A model generated the notes under the pieces. The model had not been told where the DNA came from and did not search any database. It worked only from the letters and a program-made list of their open reading frames with translations. A stretch of 64,000 nt of DNA from the NCBI RefSeq assembly GCF_900112305.1, contig NZ_FOKT01000005.1, positions 310,001 through 374,000 of the forward strand. Direction: 5' to 3'. Positions 47,634 through 60,544 of the stretch are shown one piece after another. This DNA is from Microbulbifer thermotolerans (GTDB taxonomy: Bacteria; Pseudomonadota; Gammaproteobacteria; Pseudomonadales; Cellvibrionaceae). Each line of letters starts with the position of its first letter. The stretch's first letter is position 1. The position numbers were made by a program, and so were the translations under genes.

Positions 47634-47660
47634 TAAAGAGGTACGCCACACGGCCGATGA
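47634..47660 (+). promoter_or_regulatory. sigma-28 (FliA) promoter before cheB
   Basis: TAAA (47634-47637), 15 nt, GCCGATGA (47653-47660). One mismatch to the FliA consensus. It would give cheB-MCP-cheY-cheZ an extra internal promoter inside the motility operon. Confidence 0.72.
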
Positions 47661-55625: not shown

Positions 55626-56327
55626 ATGTATACGGCACAGGGAAAAATAAAACGAGACACATTGCTGGAAGAACACCTGCCCATGATCCGGCGCCAGGCG
55701 TTGGCCTTGCAGGTAAAACTGCCCTCGGGGATAGATCTGGATGACCTGATCCAGGCTGGTACCCTGGGCTTGCTCGACGCGCTGCAGCGTTTCGATCCCA
55801 GTGCCGGAGCCAGCTTCTCCACTTTCGCCAGCCAGCGCGTCCGCGGCGCGATGATCGACGAACTCCGTACCCGAGATTGGTTGCCGCGCAGTGTGCGCCG
55901 CAATGCTCGGGCAGTCGAGCAACAGTTGTACAAACTCGAGCAGCGTCTTGGCCGCCCCGCCAGCGAGCGGGAGATTGCCGCGGAAATGGGTATGAGCCTG
56001 CAGGAGTATCGCCAGTTGCTCAGCGATACCAACAACGGTCATTTGCTCCCCTATGAGGAGTTGGTGGCGGAGAACGGTGAACCGGAAGCCGGTCCGGAAG
56101 GGCCCATGTCTCCCTTTGCTGCTCTGCTGGACAGGGAGCAGCGCGAGCTTCTGATAACTGCGATAGATGCGCTGCCTGAGCGGGAAAAGCTGCTGATGGC
56201 CCTCTACTACCAGGAAGAATTGAATTTGAAGGAAATTGGCGCCATTCTCGGTGTCACTGAATCCCGTGTCTGCCAGTTGCACAGTCAGGCAATCAAACGT
56301 TTGCGCGCTCGGCTGGCAGCCTTGTAG
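55626..56327 (+). CDS. fliA: RNA polymerase sigma-28 factor FliA
   Basis: 233 residues. Region 2 (PMIRRQALALQVKLPSGIDLDDLIQAGTLGLLDAL..RFDP), SFSTFASQRVRGAMIDELR and region 4 (LPEREKLLMALYYQEELNLKEIGAILGVTESRVCQLHSQAI). Transcribes late flagellar and chemotaxis genes; four matching promoters are seen in the window. In many gammaproteobacteria flhF and flhG sit between flhA and fliA, but here the 219-nt gap holds no gene. Confidence 0.96.
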   Translation: MYTAQGKIKRDTLLEEHLPMIRRQALALQVKLPSGIDLDDLIQAGTLGLLDALQRFDPSAGASFSTFASQRVRGAMIDELRTRDWLPRSVRRNARAVEQQLYKLEQRLGRPASEREIAAEMGMSLQEYRQLLSDTNNGHLLPYEELVAENGEPEAGPEGPMSPFAALLDREQRELLITAIDALPEREKLLMALYYQEELNLKEIGAILGVTESRVCQLHSQAIKRLRARLAAL

Positions 56328-56333
56328 GGCGGT

Positions 56334-56352
56334 GACGGGCGGTCTGCCCGTC
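56334..56352 (+). terminator. hairpin after fliA
   Basis: GACGGGC / GCCCGTC, seven perfect pairs with a 5-nt loop, 7 nt after the fliA stop codon; no T-run follows. It separates fliA from the convergent TraF-like gene. Confidence 0.45.
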
Positions 56353-56448
56353 CCGGCTAGATCCTCTCACAGGATGGAAGGAGGAAGGACGGCCGCTGCG
56401 CGGGTCATGCTCTACCGTGCAGCGACCGCTCCAATCCCCTGTTTTTGA

Positions 56449-57600
56449 TTACAGATCCACCCCGAACTCCAGTGCCGCACCCAGGGTATCGTCCGAAGAC
56501 TTGATTGCGGCCAGATGCAGATGTAGCACGTCGAAGGGGGAAAAGCCGATGCCGGCGCTGATGGTATCGTCGACTGTACCCTCCAGGTCGTGGCGATAGC
56601 CCAGGCGCAGTTGCGCCCAGTCCGCCATATCCAGTTCGACCCCCGCTCGAGCGAACCGGGCCTCCTCGCCTCCGGGCAGTCGGCTGGCGGTGAAGTCCAG
56701 ATCAAACAGAGCGGTCAGGATGTCGCCGTTGTAACCGATGCCGCCGCTGACCAGGGTTTCCAGCGGGACAGGATTGCCGCCGACAGTTTCGTAGTCCTTC
56801 TCCACCAGATTGCGCGCTGAGAGGCCGAAGCGTGTTTTGCGCCAGGTCAGGGTAGCGCCCAGGTCCAGGTTTAAGTCGCTGTCCTCGGTGGTATAGGTGT
56901 CCGCATCCAGCTCATCGATATCGTAGTCCGCGGCCGTGGCCGTGTACTCGATAGTCTCTATTGTCTGGTGCTTGGGGGTTATTCCCAGGGACAACTGCCA
57001 GTCGGGGTTGCCGATGGGAATGGTGCGCGCCAGGACAAGCCCCAGTTCGCGAACCGCATAGCCGCTGGCGGTGGCGGATGATGTCAGGTTGTCCTCCAGA
57101 AAGGGCTCAAGCTGCAGGTTATCTAGGTAATTGCGGTCCTCGTCGCTGTAGTCAAAAGTGGCGGAGAGCAGCAGGTTCTGCCGCGCGTAGAGCACGGCGC
57201 TGACCAGCTCGTTGGGGATCGCCACACTGAATTGCGCGCCGAATTCGCCGCTGAGCGCGCCTTCTGACAATTCGGAGAGCAGCGCTGAAACACCCTGTGC
57301 GTCTTCGACAGTCACCAAAGCGCCATCCAACTGATCGAGACGCTCCTGCAGTTCATCGCCCACATCCAGAAAGTCATTGCGCTCGTCGGCGATGGCGCCA
57401 AAGTTCAGAAAAGTGCCGAAGTCGTCGCCGTCGCGGAAATGGATCGCGTTGGCCGGATTGAGGATAGCGCTGGTAGTGTAGTCACCCCCAGCTACGCCGG
57501 CACCACCCATGGCGCTGGCGCGGCCGCTGAAGATCTCGGCACTGGCGGTGCCCGATACAAGAAACAGGGCACCGGACAGTGTGGCCAGTTTTTTTGTCAT
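56449..57600 (-). CDS. TraF-like outer-membrane beta-barrel protein
   Basis: 383 residues from the ATG at 57600 (GAGG 5 nt upstream; the ATG just before it is too close). Signal peptide to ~residue 21 (TASA|EIFSG). The mature start GRASAMGGAGVAGGDYTTSAILNPA is the hallmark of the FadL/TraF-like (conjugal transfer TraF, PF13729-type) barrel family; the rest alternates beta-strands and ends GAALEFGVDL. Function unknown; chromosomal members are not tied to conjugation. It lies 16 nt after the TonB-type gene and both are downstream of a sigma-28 promoter, so a role linked to motility or envelope is inferred. Confidence 0.83.
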   Translation of the reverse strand: MTKKLATLSGALFLVSGTASAEIFSGRASAMGGAGVAGGDYTTSAILNPANAIHFRDGDDFGTFLNFGAIADERNDFLDVGDELQERLDQLDGALVTVEDAQGVSALLSELSEGALSGEFGAQFSVAIPNELVSAVLYARQNLLLSATFDYSDEDRNYLDNLQLEPFLEDNLTSSATASGYAVRELGLVLARTIPIGNPDWQLSLGITPKHQTIETIEYTATAADYDIDELDADTYTTEDSDLNLDLGATLTWRKTRFGLSARNLVEKDYETVGGNPVPLETLVSGGIGYNGDILTALFDLDFTASRLPGGEEARFARAGVELDMADWAQLRLGYRHDLEGTVDDTISAGIGFSPFDVLHLHLAAIKSSDDTLGAALEFGVDL

Positions 57601-57616
57601 CATTTCCTCGCTCCGA

Positions 57617-57979
57617 TCAGCTGGAAAGTTTGAAGTTGATGGGTACGACAAACTCATAGCTGTCGATTCCCAGCTCAGCCGGGATGGCAGGGTAAGGGTT
57701 GGCGCTCTCAACACTGCGCAAGGCCGCCCGGTTCAGGCTGGAGTAGTTGGATTCTTTTAGTACCTGGATGTTTTGCACCTGACCTTGGGCGTCGATAGTG
57801 ACCTGCAGCTGTACCACGCCCTCCCATTTGCGCTCCTGCGCGCGCCGGGGATAACGGACGTGCTGGGCGGTGTGCTTCTTCAATTGGGTTGCGTATTGGT
57901 TGAGCGCGTCGTTGGCGCTTGCAGTGTTCGATGCCGCGGCGGTTACTGCCAGGACAAATAGGAGTTTGAGCAGTTTCAT
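57617..57979 (-). CDS. periplasmic TonB C-terminal domain protein
   Basis: 120 residues from the ATG at 57979. A signal peptide (MKLLKLLFVLAVTAAASNTASA) is followed by a TonB C-terminal fold: QHVRYPRRAQERKWEGVVQLQVTIDAQGQVQNIQVLKESNYSSLNRAALRSV. It has no membrane anchor helix or Pro-rich spacer, so it cannot work as a classical energy transducer. It precedes the TraF-like barrel gene and stands ~100 nt downstream of a sigma-28 promoter. Confidence 0.85.
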   Translation of the reverse strand: MKLLKLLFVLAVTAAASNTASANDALNQYATQLKKHTAQHVRYPRRAQERKWEGVVQLQVTIDAQGQVQNIQVLKESNYSSLNRAALRSVESANPYPAIPAELGIDSYEFVVPINFKLSS

Positions 57980-58079
57980 GGCTTGATTCCCCGGTGAAAG
58001 TGTTTCGGACTTGAGTCTTAGGAGATGTGAAATTGCGGCGCCAAGCGACGCCGGTGGGCCGAAACGGTCCACACTTTCA

Positions 58080-58106
58080 CTATCGGCGGAATAAAAGCGG
58101 GCTTTA
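58080..58106 (-). promoter_or_regulatory. sigma-28 (FliA) promoter before the TonB/TraF-like pair
   Basis: Read on the minus strand: TAAA (58103-58106), 15 nt, GCCGATAG (58080-58087). Only the last base differs from consensus. The start of transcription would be ~58073, ~95 nt before the TonB-type gene. Confidence 0.75.
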
Positions 58107-58137
58107 GTAGAGAATTGGGGCGCAGCCGATAATTCGC

Positions 58138-58357
58138 TTAGGGAACCTCTGATTAATTCGCGCGAACACTATGGTAGCTTCCGGGGCGCTCAGGCAATAG
58201 GATAGCCATTTCGAGAACGCATGAGTACTTTCCTGAGGCTCCGACGGATACATCCCTGTATCCGACGGTTTCGAAATGGCCAGCCTACACCTGAGCTTCT
58301 CTTCTGGCTTCAAAGAGTTTTTACCGTCAGGAAGTGAATTAATCAGAGGTTCTTTAG
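58138..58357 (+). mobile_element. MITE-like element, copy F (220 bp)
   Basis: TTAG at each border with ends GGGAACCTCTGATTAATTC and GAATTAATCAGAGGTTC. Interior hairpin CGGATACATC..TGTATCCG. Same orientation as E, same subfamily as C. It separates the sigma-28 promoter region from the EAL/HDOD gene; 58358-58456 holds nothing recognisable. Confidence 0.88.
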
Positions 58358-58456
58358 GGAAGTCAAAACACTGCGCCCTGAACCTGTCTGGAACCGTCAG
58401 AGCGCTCGTGGGCTCCGCAGTGGCTGCTCACCGGGGCGGAGCCGGGAGGCTATGTG

Positions 58457-59701
58457 TCAGTCCGCGGAGCTCATCGCTTTCTGAACCTGTTGCGCCCAGC
58501 CAATGGCGTGGCGGTAGGCGGCCTCGTAGAACCGGGTATCTTTCAGCAGGGTGAGTTCATCGAAGAGGCCCTGCTCGTAGCGTTCCACCTCACCGAGGAC
58601 TTCACCCAAGCTGCCGCCGCGCGCCAACAGGGCGCTTTTGACTTCTTTGCTCAGGGGTACCTGCTCCATCAGTTCCGGCATGGAAATATCCATCAGTGCA
58701 TCCAGCTGCGACAGCAGGCCGACAATAAAATAGTTAACAGTGTCGCTGTGCCCGGCAATTTCCGCCAGAACCTCGCACATGCGGCCGCGCACCAGCATAC
58801 TGCGGGTGAGTGCTTCCGGCTTGTTGTGCTCACCGGATACCAGGAATAAGTTGGCCCAGCGCTTGATCTCTTCAAGGCCTACAAGTGCGATGGCATGGGA
58901 TAAGGAGCGTACTTCACGGCGCAGACCCATGGCGGCGGAGTTGACGACCTTCAATATGCGGTAGGTGAGGTTGGCGTCCTTGAGCGCGATTTGCTCCAGA
59001 CGCATTGGCGATGCTTCCGGGCTGTGTAGCTCTGACAACAGTTGCAGTAGCAGTACCTTGTTACCGCTGATCTTCTTGCCCTTGATTGGGGTGGGGGCGC
59101 TGAGAAAATTGCCTTGGTAGTAGTCGAACCCCAGATCCGCACAGCGCTCGAACTGCTCGCGGTTGTCGACCTTGTCCGCCAGAATCTTTACGCCATTTGC
59201 CCGCAGTTTGCGTACCGCCCGGTCGAGGGCAGCGTCGTTTAATTGCCGGGTGTCCACCTTGACGATATGCACTAGCTCCACCAGTACATCCAGTTCGACG
59301 TCGTCGGGGTCGTAACCCGCCATTGCGAGGCGGTAACCGCGCTGAGCCAGGAGTTTAAGCTGTTCTACACGCTCGGAAGTGAGCAGCATACCTTCCGGCA
59401 CTTCCAGAATATATTGATCCTTGGGCAGGTCCGGAAGCTCGGGGGCCAGGATCACTTCATCGGTGACTTTGAGGAAGCCGGGTACCCGTTGCATGCGGCC
59501 GTCCTGGAACAGCTGGGTATAGGTGCCGAGAATGACTGCACTGCTGGCTTCTATATCCGATAGCGTCGCCCCGAGGGATGGCTGCTCTCCCTGCACCAGC
59601 AGGTCAAGGGCGACAACCTCCTGGCCGCGGTTATACACGGGTCGGCAGGCCAGACTCACTTCCAGCAGATCATCATCAATAACATCTGGTAATCGTGTCA
59701 C
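58457..59701 (-). CDS. EAL-HDOD signalling protein with degenerate EAL
   Basis: 414 residues from a GTG start. Residues ~15-190 have the EAL fold (CRPVYNRGQEVVALDLLVQG, VILEVPEGML-like stretch, VKVDTRQLND, ILADKVDNREQFERCADLGFDYYQGNFLSAP), but the EAL signature is replaced by ALDLL, so it is probably not an active c-di-GMP phosphodiesterase. HDOD domain at ~200-390 (LLQLLSELHSPEASPMRLEQIALKDANLTYRILKVVNSA). Related to CdgJ of Vibrio, which affects motility. Lies 60 nt after flgN on the same strand and is probably transcribed with flgMN. Confidence 0.9.
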   Translation of the reverse strand: MTRLPDVIDDDLLEVSLACRPVYNRGQEVVALDLLVQGEQPSLGATLSDIEASSAVILGTYTQLFQDGRMQRVPGFLKVTDEVILAPELPDLPKDQYILEVPEGMLLTSERVEQLKLLAQRGYRLAMAGYDPDDVELDVLVELVHIVKVDTRQLNDAALDRAVRKLRANGVKILADKVDNREQFERCADLGFDYYQGNFLSAPTPIKGKKISGNKVLLLQLLSELHSPEASPMRLEQIALKDANLTYRILKVVNSAAMGLRREVRSLSHAIALVGLEEIKRWANLFLVSGEHNKPEALTRSMLVRGRMCEVLAEIAGHSDTVNYFIVGLLSQLDALMDISMPELMEQVPLSKEVKSALLARGGSLGEVLGEVERYEQGLFDELTLLKDTRFYEAAYRHAIGWAQQVQKAMSSAD

Positions 59702-59761: not shown

Positions 59762-60211
59762 TTATGCCCGCGAGTTGATGCGCCCGGATTGGGCCTGGGC
59801 CCGGCCGTCCGGGCCGTAGAGATCTTTACCCGCTGCTGCCTGAAGGAAATCCAGCAGGCGGCGGTTGTGTTCCGCTCGAAGATCGATCAGGGCGCCGTTG
59901 CCCCGGTTGAGTTCCGCCACCTCGGCGGCGCATTCGCAAATGGCGCGCCATAGCGGCAGGCAGCCGGCGTCGTTGGCGGCGCGCTCGTCCCCCTCGCGAT
60001 TGTCGCTGTAACCCAGGCGGAGCAGAGCCTGGCGGCGATGGCGTTCAAAATCTTCCACTGCCCCGAGCTGCGCCTGCTTTCGCTCCGCCAGCTGTGACAG
60101 CCTAGTGCCGTCCACTCGGCCTTCCAGCAGCACGCCGCGCTCTTCCCGCAACAGTTCCAACAGCTGTTGCAAGCGGGTCATCTGTTGTTCCAGGTGGTCC
60201 GCCAGTGCCAT
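59762..60211 (-). CDS. flgN: flagellar export chaperone FlgN
   Basis: 149 residues, helical: LEQQMTRLQQLLELLREERGVLLEGRVDGTRLSQLAERKQAQLGAV, LEFLQAAAG-type C-terminal part (NRRLLDFLQAAAGKDLYGPDG). Chaperone for hook-associated proteins FlgK and FlgL. Four nt after flgM on the same strand. Confidence 0.9.
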   Translation of the reverse strand: MALADHLEQQMTRLQQLLELLREERGVLLEGRVDGTRLSQLAERKQAQLGAVEDFERHRRQALLRLGYSDNREGDERAANDAGCLPLWRAICECAAEVAELNRGNGALIDLRAEHNRRLLDFLQAAAGKDLYGPDGRAQAQSGRINSRA

Positions 60212-60215
60212 GGCG

Positions 60216-60488
60216 TCACGTTTCCACCAGTTCGCGAAGGCTTTGAATCAGGCCGTCGGCAATCTTGTCCGCGCGGATTTCCAGGCGTCCTTCGGCAATG
60301 GCCTGGCGCAACTCTTCCACCCGCACGGTGTCGATATCTTGACTGTTGTCGGCGCTCGCCTGACGCAGGCGGCTGACATCGGCGGAGGCTTCCGCCGCTT
60401 CGGTTTTGGGCGCCGGTGCTGTTTCGTTGCGTCCGCCCTCGTGCGGAGCCTTGGCGGCGGTCAACTGGGCGATATTGTCGATTTTCAA
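60216..60488 (-). CDS. flgM: anti-sigma-28 factor FlgM
   Basis: 90 residues from a TTG start at 60488, with GGAG 8 nt upstream (complement). N-terminus MKIDNIAQLTA is family-typical; the C-terminal helices that hold sigma-28 are DTVRVEELRQAIAEGRLEIRADKIADGLIQSLREL. Blocks FliA until exported through the finished hook. Its own sigma-28 promoter lies 30 nt upstream. Confidence 0.93.
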   Translation of the reverse strand: MKIDNIAQLTAAKAPHEGGRNETAPAPKTEAAEASADVSRLRQASADNSQDIDTVRVEELRQAIAEGRLEIRADKIADGLIQSLRELVET

Positions 60489-60517: not shown

Positions 60518-60544
60518 ATATCGGCCCGTTTTAACGCTTCTTTA
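60518..60544 (-). promoter_or_regulatory. sigma-28 (FliA) promoter for flgMN
   Basis: On the minus strand TAAA (60541-60544), 15 nt, GCCGATAT (60518-60525). Transcription would begin ~60511, ~22 nt before the flgM TTG start. Controls flgM-flgN and probably the EAL/HDOD gene. Confidence 0.8.

Follow-up and report, generated by a model that had tools for sequence, protein, structure and literature searches.

Among described proteins, TonB-type C-terminal domains with a link to motility occur in the polar PocA-PocB-TonB3 complex of Pseudomonas and in the AgmX/PglI proteins (GltJ/GltG) of Myxococcus gliding, which are anchored and composed of several domains. The stretch of Microbulbifer thermotolerans DNA analysed here (64,000 nt, referred to as the window) carries a gene (57617..57979, minus strand) whose 120-aa product belongs to the same domain family (PF03544, 5.4e-20, above the gathering score). 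It can be likened to these motility proteins by domain type and motility link, not by orthology, and its match to the AgmX/PglI tail profile was weak (E 2.3e-4). Family and fold are shared with the TonB/TolA proteins as well, but here the domain stands alone, lacking a transmembrane anchor or linker and preceded by a predicted cleavable signal peptide. Although non-structural genes under FliA (sigma-28) are an already known kind, the usual products of FliA class-3 genes do not include a TonB C-terminal domain, and a conserved lone TonB tail in the FliA regulon was not described in the literature that we searched (most subscription journals lay outside its scope).

The short TonB_C orthologues in Microbulbifer are 120-132 aa long, with a signal-peptide-like N terminus followed directly by the domain; signal peptides, here and for the TraF_2 protein discussed below, were read from the sequence. 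Neither an inner-membrane anchor nor a Pro-rich linker was found in the sequence of the protein, and therefore it cannot act alone as the energy transducer of an ExbB-ExbD-TonB system. An AF2 model (mean pLDDT 84.5) resembled 6sly, a TonB C-terminal domain (Z 11.2), then domain III of TolA (Z about 10), and also the TonB C-terminal domains solved with transporters (2gsk, 2grx, 6i97).

The gene is followed after 13 nt by a second minus-strand gene (56449..57603) encoding a 384-aa protein with a signal peptide, which was assigned to TraF_2 (PF13729, 2.5e-43; 148.6 bits against a gathering score of 25). The assignments of the sequence-only reading, a TonB C-domain gene paired with a TraF-like gene, were thus confirmed by Pfam; we take the TraF_2 family to be different from the thioredoxin-like TraF of the F plasmid. 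The TraF_2 product is probably an outer-membrane barrel, as suggested by weak matches to PorP/PorV profiles; a sequence search against the PDB gave no match, and its AF2 model, built from two sequences only, had a mean pLDDT of 29.5. Convergent with this operon lies fliA (55626..56327, plus strand; NCBIfam FliA, 7.8e-90). Upstream of the operon, on its own (minus) strand, are genes for an EAL-HDOD protein (58457..59701), flgN (59762..60211; Pfam FlgN, 1.9e-26), flgM for the anti-sigma-28 factor (60216..60488; NCBIfam FlgM, 4.4e-15) and flgA. The pair had been placed between fliA and flgMN, which is right only loosely, because the EAL-HDOD gene separates it from flgN-flgM; this synteny is kept in all flagellate relatives. 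A search with PF18393 for the motor accessory MotY gave no match in the M. thermotolerans genome, nor in the controls.

On the minus strand, positions 58106 to 58080 read TAAA-GCCCGCTTTTATTCC-GCCGATAG, in which the -35 element TAAA (58103..58106) and the -10 element GCCGATAG (58080..58087) are separated by a spacer of 15 nt, and the ATG of the TonB_C gene lies 100 nt downstream. A sigma-28 promoter TAAA-N15-GCCGATAG in front of 57979-56449 had been proposed from the sequence, and the site was borne out: TAAA-N14-16-GCCGATA was found twice in the window against 0.03 expected. The second occurrence, TAAA-N15-GCCGATAT before flgM (60518..60544, minus strand), served as an internal comparison. The same form, TAAAG-N14-GCCGAT, is shared with the class-3 promoters of flgM, fliC, fliD and cheB in this genome and cluster; the cheB site (TAAAG-N14-GCCGATGA, 47634-47660) lies 48 nt before a TTG start, flaG is preceded by such a site as fliD is, and fliC has a form with one mismatch. 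Genome-wide, the loose form of the site matched 17 times in 3.9 Mb, and those whose spacer is 15 nt are concentrated in flagellar DNA at C5:368-405 kb (TonB_C, flgM, flaG, fliD and a fimbrial locus).

At the fimbrial locus, which lies where the flagellar cluster ends, a perfect sigma-28 site (TAAAT-N14-GCCGATAA at L080:11160-11186, G000:C5:405159) stands before the genes for a small exported protein and a chaperone of the PapD type, and a CS1-type usher is encoded close by on the opposite strand. Control of these fimbriae by FliA is possible.

A MITE-like element with terminal inverted repeats (58138..58362, no strand assigned) ends about 32 bp upstream of the -35 box; the genome has about 40 nearly complete copies with 87-93% identity. 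Directly after the expected transcript start of the TonB_C operon lies a stem-loop (58054..58072, minus strand). In single folds, each of the nine TonB_C leaders of the genus formed a stem-loop that begins at most a few nt from the expected start and whose sequence differs between leaders, while no comparable one was found in four flgM leaders; alignment-based covariation support was weak. This stem-loop may stabilise the mRNA. The terminator scan was empty.

Conservation was assessed in 48 Microbulbifer genomes, comprising the source genome of the window (G000) and, among others, M. harenosus (G001), M. litoralis (G016), M. aggregans (G019), strain HZ11 (G024) and an uncultured isolate (G285). 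The fliA gene was found in 8 of the 48 genomes. All eight also have the short TonB_C gene, which was absent from the 40 genomes without fliA (Fisher 2.7e-9), and in all eight it lies beside fliA in convergent orientation, with TraF_2 in M. thermotolerans and M. litoralis as the only intervening gene. The eight genomes hold nine TonB_C copies, since M. aggregans has a tandem pair. Each copy is preceded, 66 to 106 nt before its ATG, by a sigma-28 site with at most one mismatch, in which TAAAG, GCCGAT and the 15-nt spacer are invariant (TAAAG-N14-GCCGAT). In a 127-column alignment of the nine sites, the 12 columns of the two boxes averaged 1.80 bits of information, the remaining columns 0.45. The background frequency of sites with a 15-nt spacer and up to one mismatch was 0.008 per kb-strand (counted over 249 kb of non-flagellar Microbulbifer loci), corresponding to about 0.002 chance sites per 250 nt upstream of a gene. 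The clearest single piece of evidence is the tandem pair of M. aggregans, where each copy has a sigma-28 site of its own. Conservation of the site upstream of orthologues, which had been suggested as a check on the promoter, was therefore found for TonB_C at 9 of 9 copies in eight genomes. These comparisons strongly support the TonB_C gene as a conserved sigma-28 (late) gene, and its control by sigma-28 is, from the sequence evidence, almost certain.

In the gene tree of the genus, fliA is scattered, with seven changes, and TonB_C agrees with fliA in each of the five independent pairs that have support (sign test on these five pairs, p = 0.0625). Linkage within the flagellar block would by itself yield co-occurrence of fliA and TonB_C; therefore, the argument is carried by selection and by the promoter footprint. 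Judging from dN/dS values of 0.03-0.19, with dS near saturation in most pairs, the TonB_C protein is under purifying selection. The arrangement appears restricted to the genus, as none of about 15 flagellate genomes from other families had a TonB_C gene beside fliA. Short TonB_C proteins of another family in the order (G123, G151, G177 and G242) were considered and rejected: their genes are linked to proS, non-flagellar and have no good site.

The sequence-only reading had treated both genes as a new late flagellar regulon member, perhaps serving envelope passage of the flagellum or a surface function. For TonB_C the regulon assignment stands, whereas TraF_2 as a general FliA regulon member in the genus is not supported by the comparison of loci. 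Among flagellate genomes, TraF_2 belongs to the TonB_C operon only in M. thermotolerans and M. litoralis; in the others checked it adjoins phoR-phoB-ubiA (for example L151 in G180), and the phoR loci of the two operon genomes have no TraF_2. In the tree, the two copies found in the operon form the sister group of those at phoR (100/99). The phoR-locus copies, for which conservation of the site was likewise looked for, have no TAAA box and no good sigma-28 site, the best candidates having 1-4 mismatches, fliA-less genomes included. Instead, most of these genomes, with or without fliA, have a palindromic block TTATTTTGGCGCCGCC(G/A)ATAA at phoR, roughly 100-130 nt upstream of where TraF_2 begins (L087-L093, L146, L148 and L149). 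Two phoR-locus sites with one mismatch (G017 and G285) were rejected as sigma-28 sites once the alignment had shown this block. Since the palindrome has no TAAA box and is shared with fliA-less genomes, it is more likely the operator of a regulator than a sigma-28 site, and such an operator is the probable role of the block. These facts indicate that recruitment of TraF_2 to the sigma-28 promoter happened in a single lineage and that the gene is a lineage-specific passenger of the operon. That TraF_2 joined the operon in one lineage only is a caution against treating operon partners as one unit.

A common action of the two proteins at the outer membrane, in adhesion, export or passage of the flagellum through the envelope, would agree with the 13-nt gap and single promoter common to M. 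thermotolerans and M. litoralis. TraF_2 was also present in 8 of 8 genomes with fliA versus 5 of 40 without it (Fisher 3.4e-6), a lean towards flagellates that keeps a functional link of TraF_2 with the flagellum possible. Against it, TraF_2 lies outside the operon in every other flagellate, is retained in five fliA-less genomes, and has its own palindromic upstream element rather than a good sigma-28 site at phoR where checked. We consider joint action of the pair unlikely.

The closest relative of the short TonB_C protein is the last domain of a fusion with a chalcone-isomerase-like domain (PF16036), a protein of about 390 aa with a signal peptide, a Pro/Glu-rich linker and no obvious membrane anchor. 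This CHI-TonB_C fusion is present in nearly all Microbulbifer genomes, fliA-less species included (the M. thermotolerans copy is at C12:20409, L095), and, unlike the short gene, it is not linked to flagella. The TonB_C domains of the two are about 43-56% identical and their first 30 residues are similar; the short proteins form a single clade apart from the CHI-TonB_C domains (support 100/100). Just after the signal peptide, APRLNGVKQQ corresponds to APLLNGLALEQQ in the comparison of short protein and fusion, a resemblance which suggests that the short gene arose from the CHI-TonB_C gene by duplication and internal deletion. This kinship with a near-universal protein, down to the first residues, would also fit a gene that sits in the flagellar block and is expressed from a sigma-28 promoter but has a general role in the envelope, for instance as a backup for the CHI-TonB_C paralogue. 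A general role is made improbable by the absence of the gene from 40 of 40 non-flagellate genomes, the conserved sigma-28 site at every copy and the strong purifying selection.

Over-expression of a periplasmic TonB C-terminal domain inhibits uptake, and the short protein, secreted and unanchored, matches the fold of the domains solved with transporters. It might thus be a decoy and not a flagellar part, filling the TonB boxes of outer-membrane transporters and so reducing TonB-dependent uptake, or phage and colicin entry, in swimming cells. However, it has NPYPxIP in place of the WRFxP region of classical TonB, and nothing connects the flagellated state with a need for reduced uptake, which leaves a decoy distinctly improbable. 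Lastly, a match with one mismatch at a single locus would be inconclusive, and the genome has loose matches at other places, but a coincidental site with the pair transcribed in some other way is hardly credible and is in practice refuted by the footprint, invariant at nine of nine orthologous positions with diverged flanks. A scan of 56300-58500 found no sigma-70-type promoter, which also speaks against it.

The preferred reading is that the site is a genuine FliA class-3 promoter driving a lone TonB C-terminal domain protein. Export of FlgM would free FliA and lead to late expression of TonB_C, whose product would be exported by Sec, cleaved and kept in the periplasm as a soluble protein. 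Lacking both anchor and linker, it would not transduce the proton-motive force through ExbBD by itself; its binding face, of the TonB/TolA-III type, could hold peptidoglycan or an outer-membrane or lipoprotein partner around the flagellar base. In M. thermotolerans and M. litoralis, the recruited TraF_2 may be the outer-membrane partner. Peptidoglycan binding by dimers of TonB C-terminal domains is discussed in the literature (PMC9022066). A function related to the flagellum or motility is likely, and we lean towards a periplasmic accessory that is FliA-driven, specific to Microbulbifer and tied to the flagellated state. Promoter conservation, co-occurrence with fliA, fold and purifying selection were shown directly, while its binding partner and phenotype are what we infer. 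The mechanism of a periplasmic binder is somewhat doubtful. Only tentatively do we propose the full reading, in which an unanchored TonB_C derived from CHI-TonB_C by internal deletion became, under FliA, a dedicated late flagellar accessory, perhaps a peptidoglycan or outer-membrane binder at the rod or motor. Strain HZ11 counts against the flagellar-accessory reading: it has been published as non-motile and without flagella (PMC11678492), yet fliA, flgM, flgN, flgA and a TonB_C gene preceded by the site are all present in its genome (L086 and L101).

The analysis turns a guess about a single site into a testable claim, namely that Microbulbifer would have a conserved, genus-specific protein of the flagellated state that is driven by sigma-28 and consists of a TonB tail. 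Lineage-specific periplasmic parts of unknown origin are present in many flagellar motors, and in this case it is possible to trace the probable parent gene, the promoter and the loss of the gene together with the flagellum.
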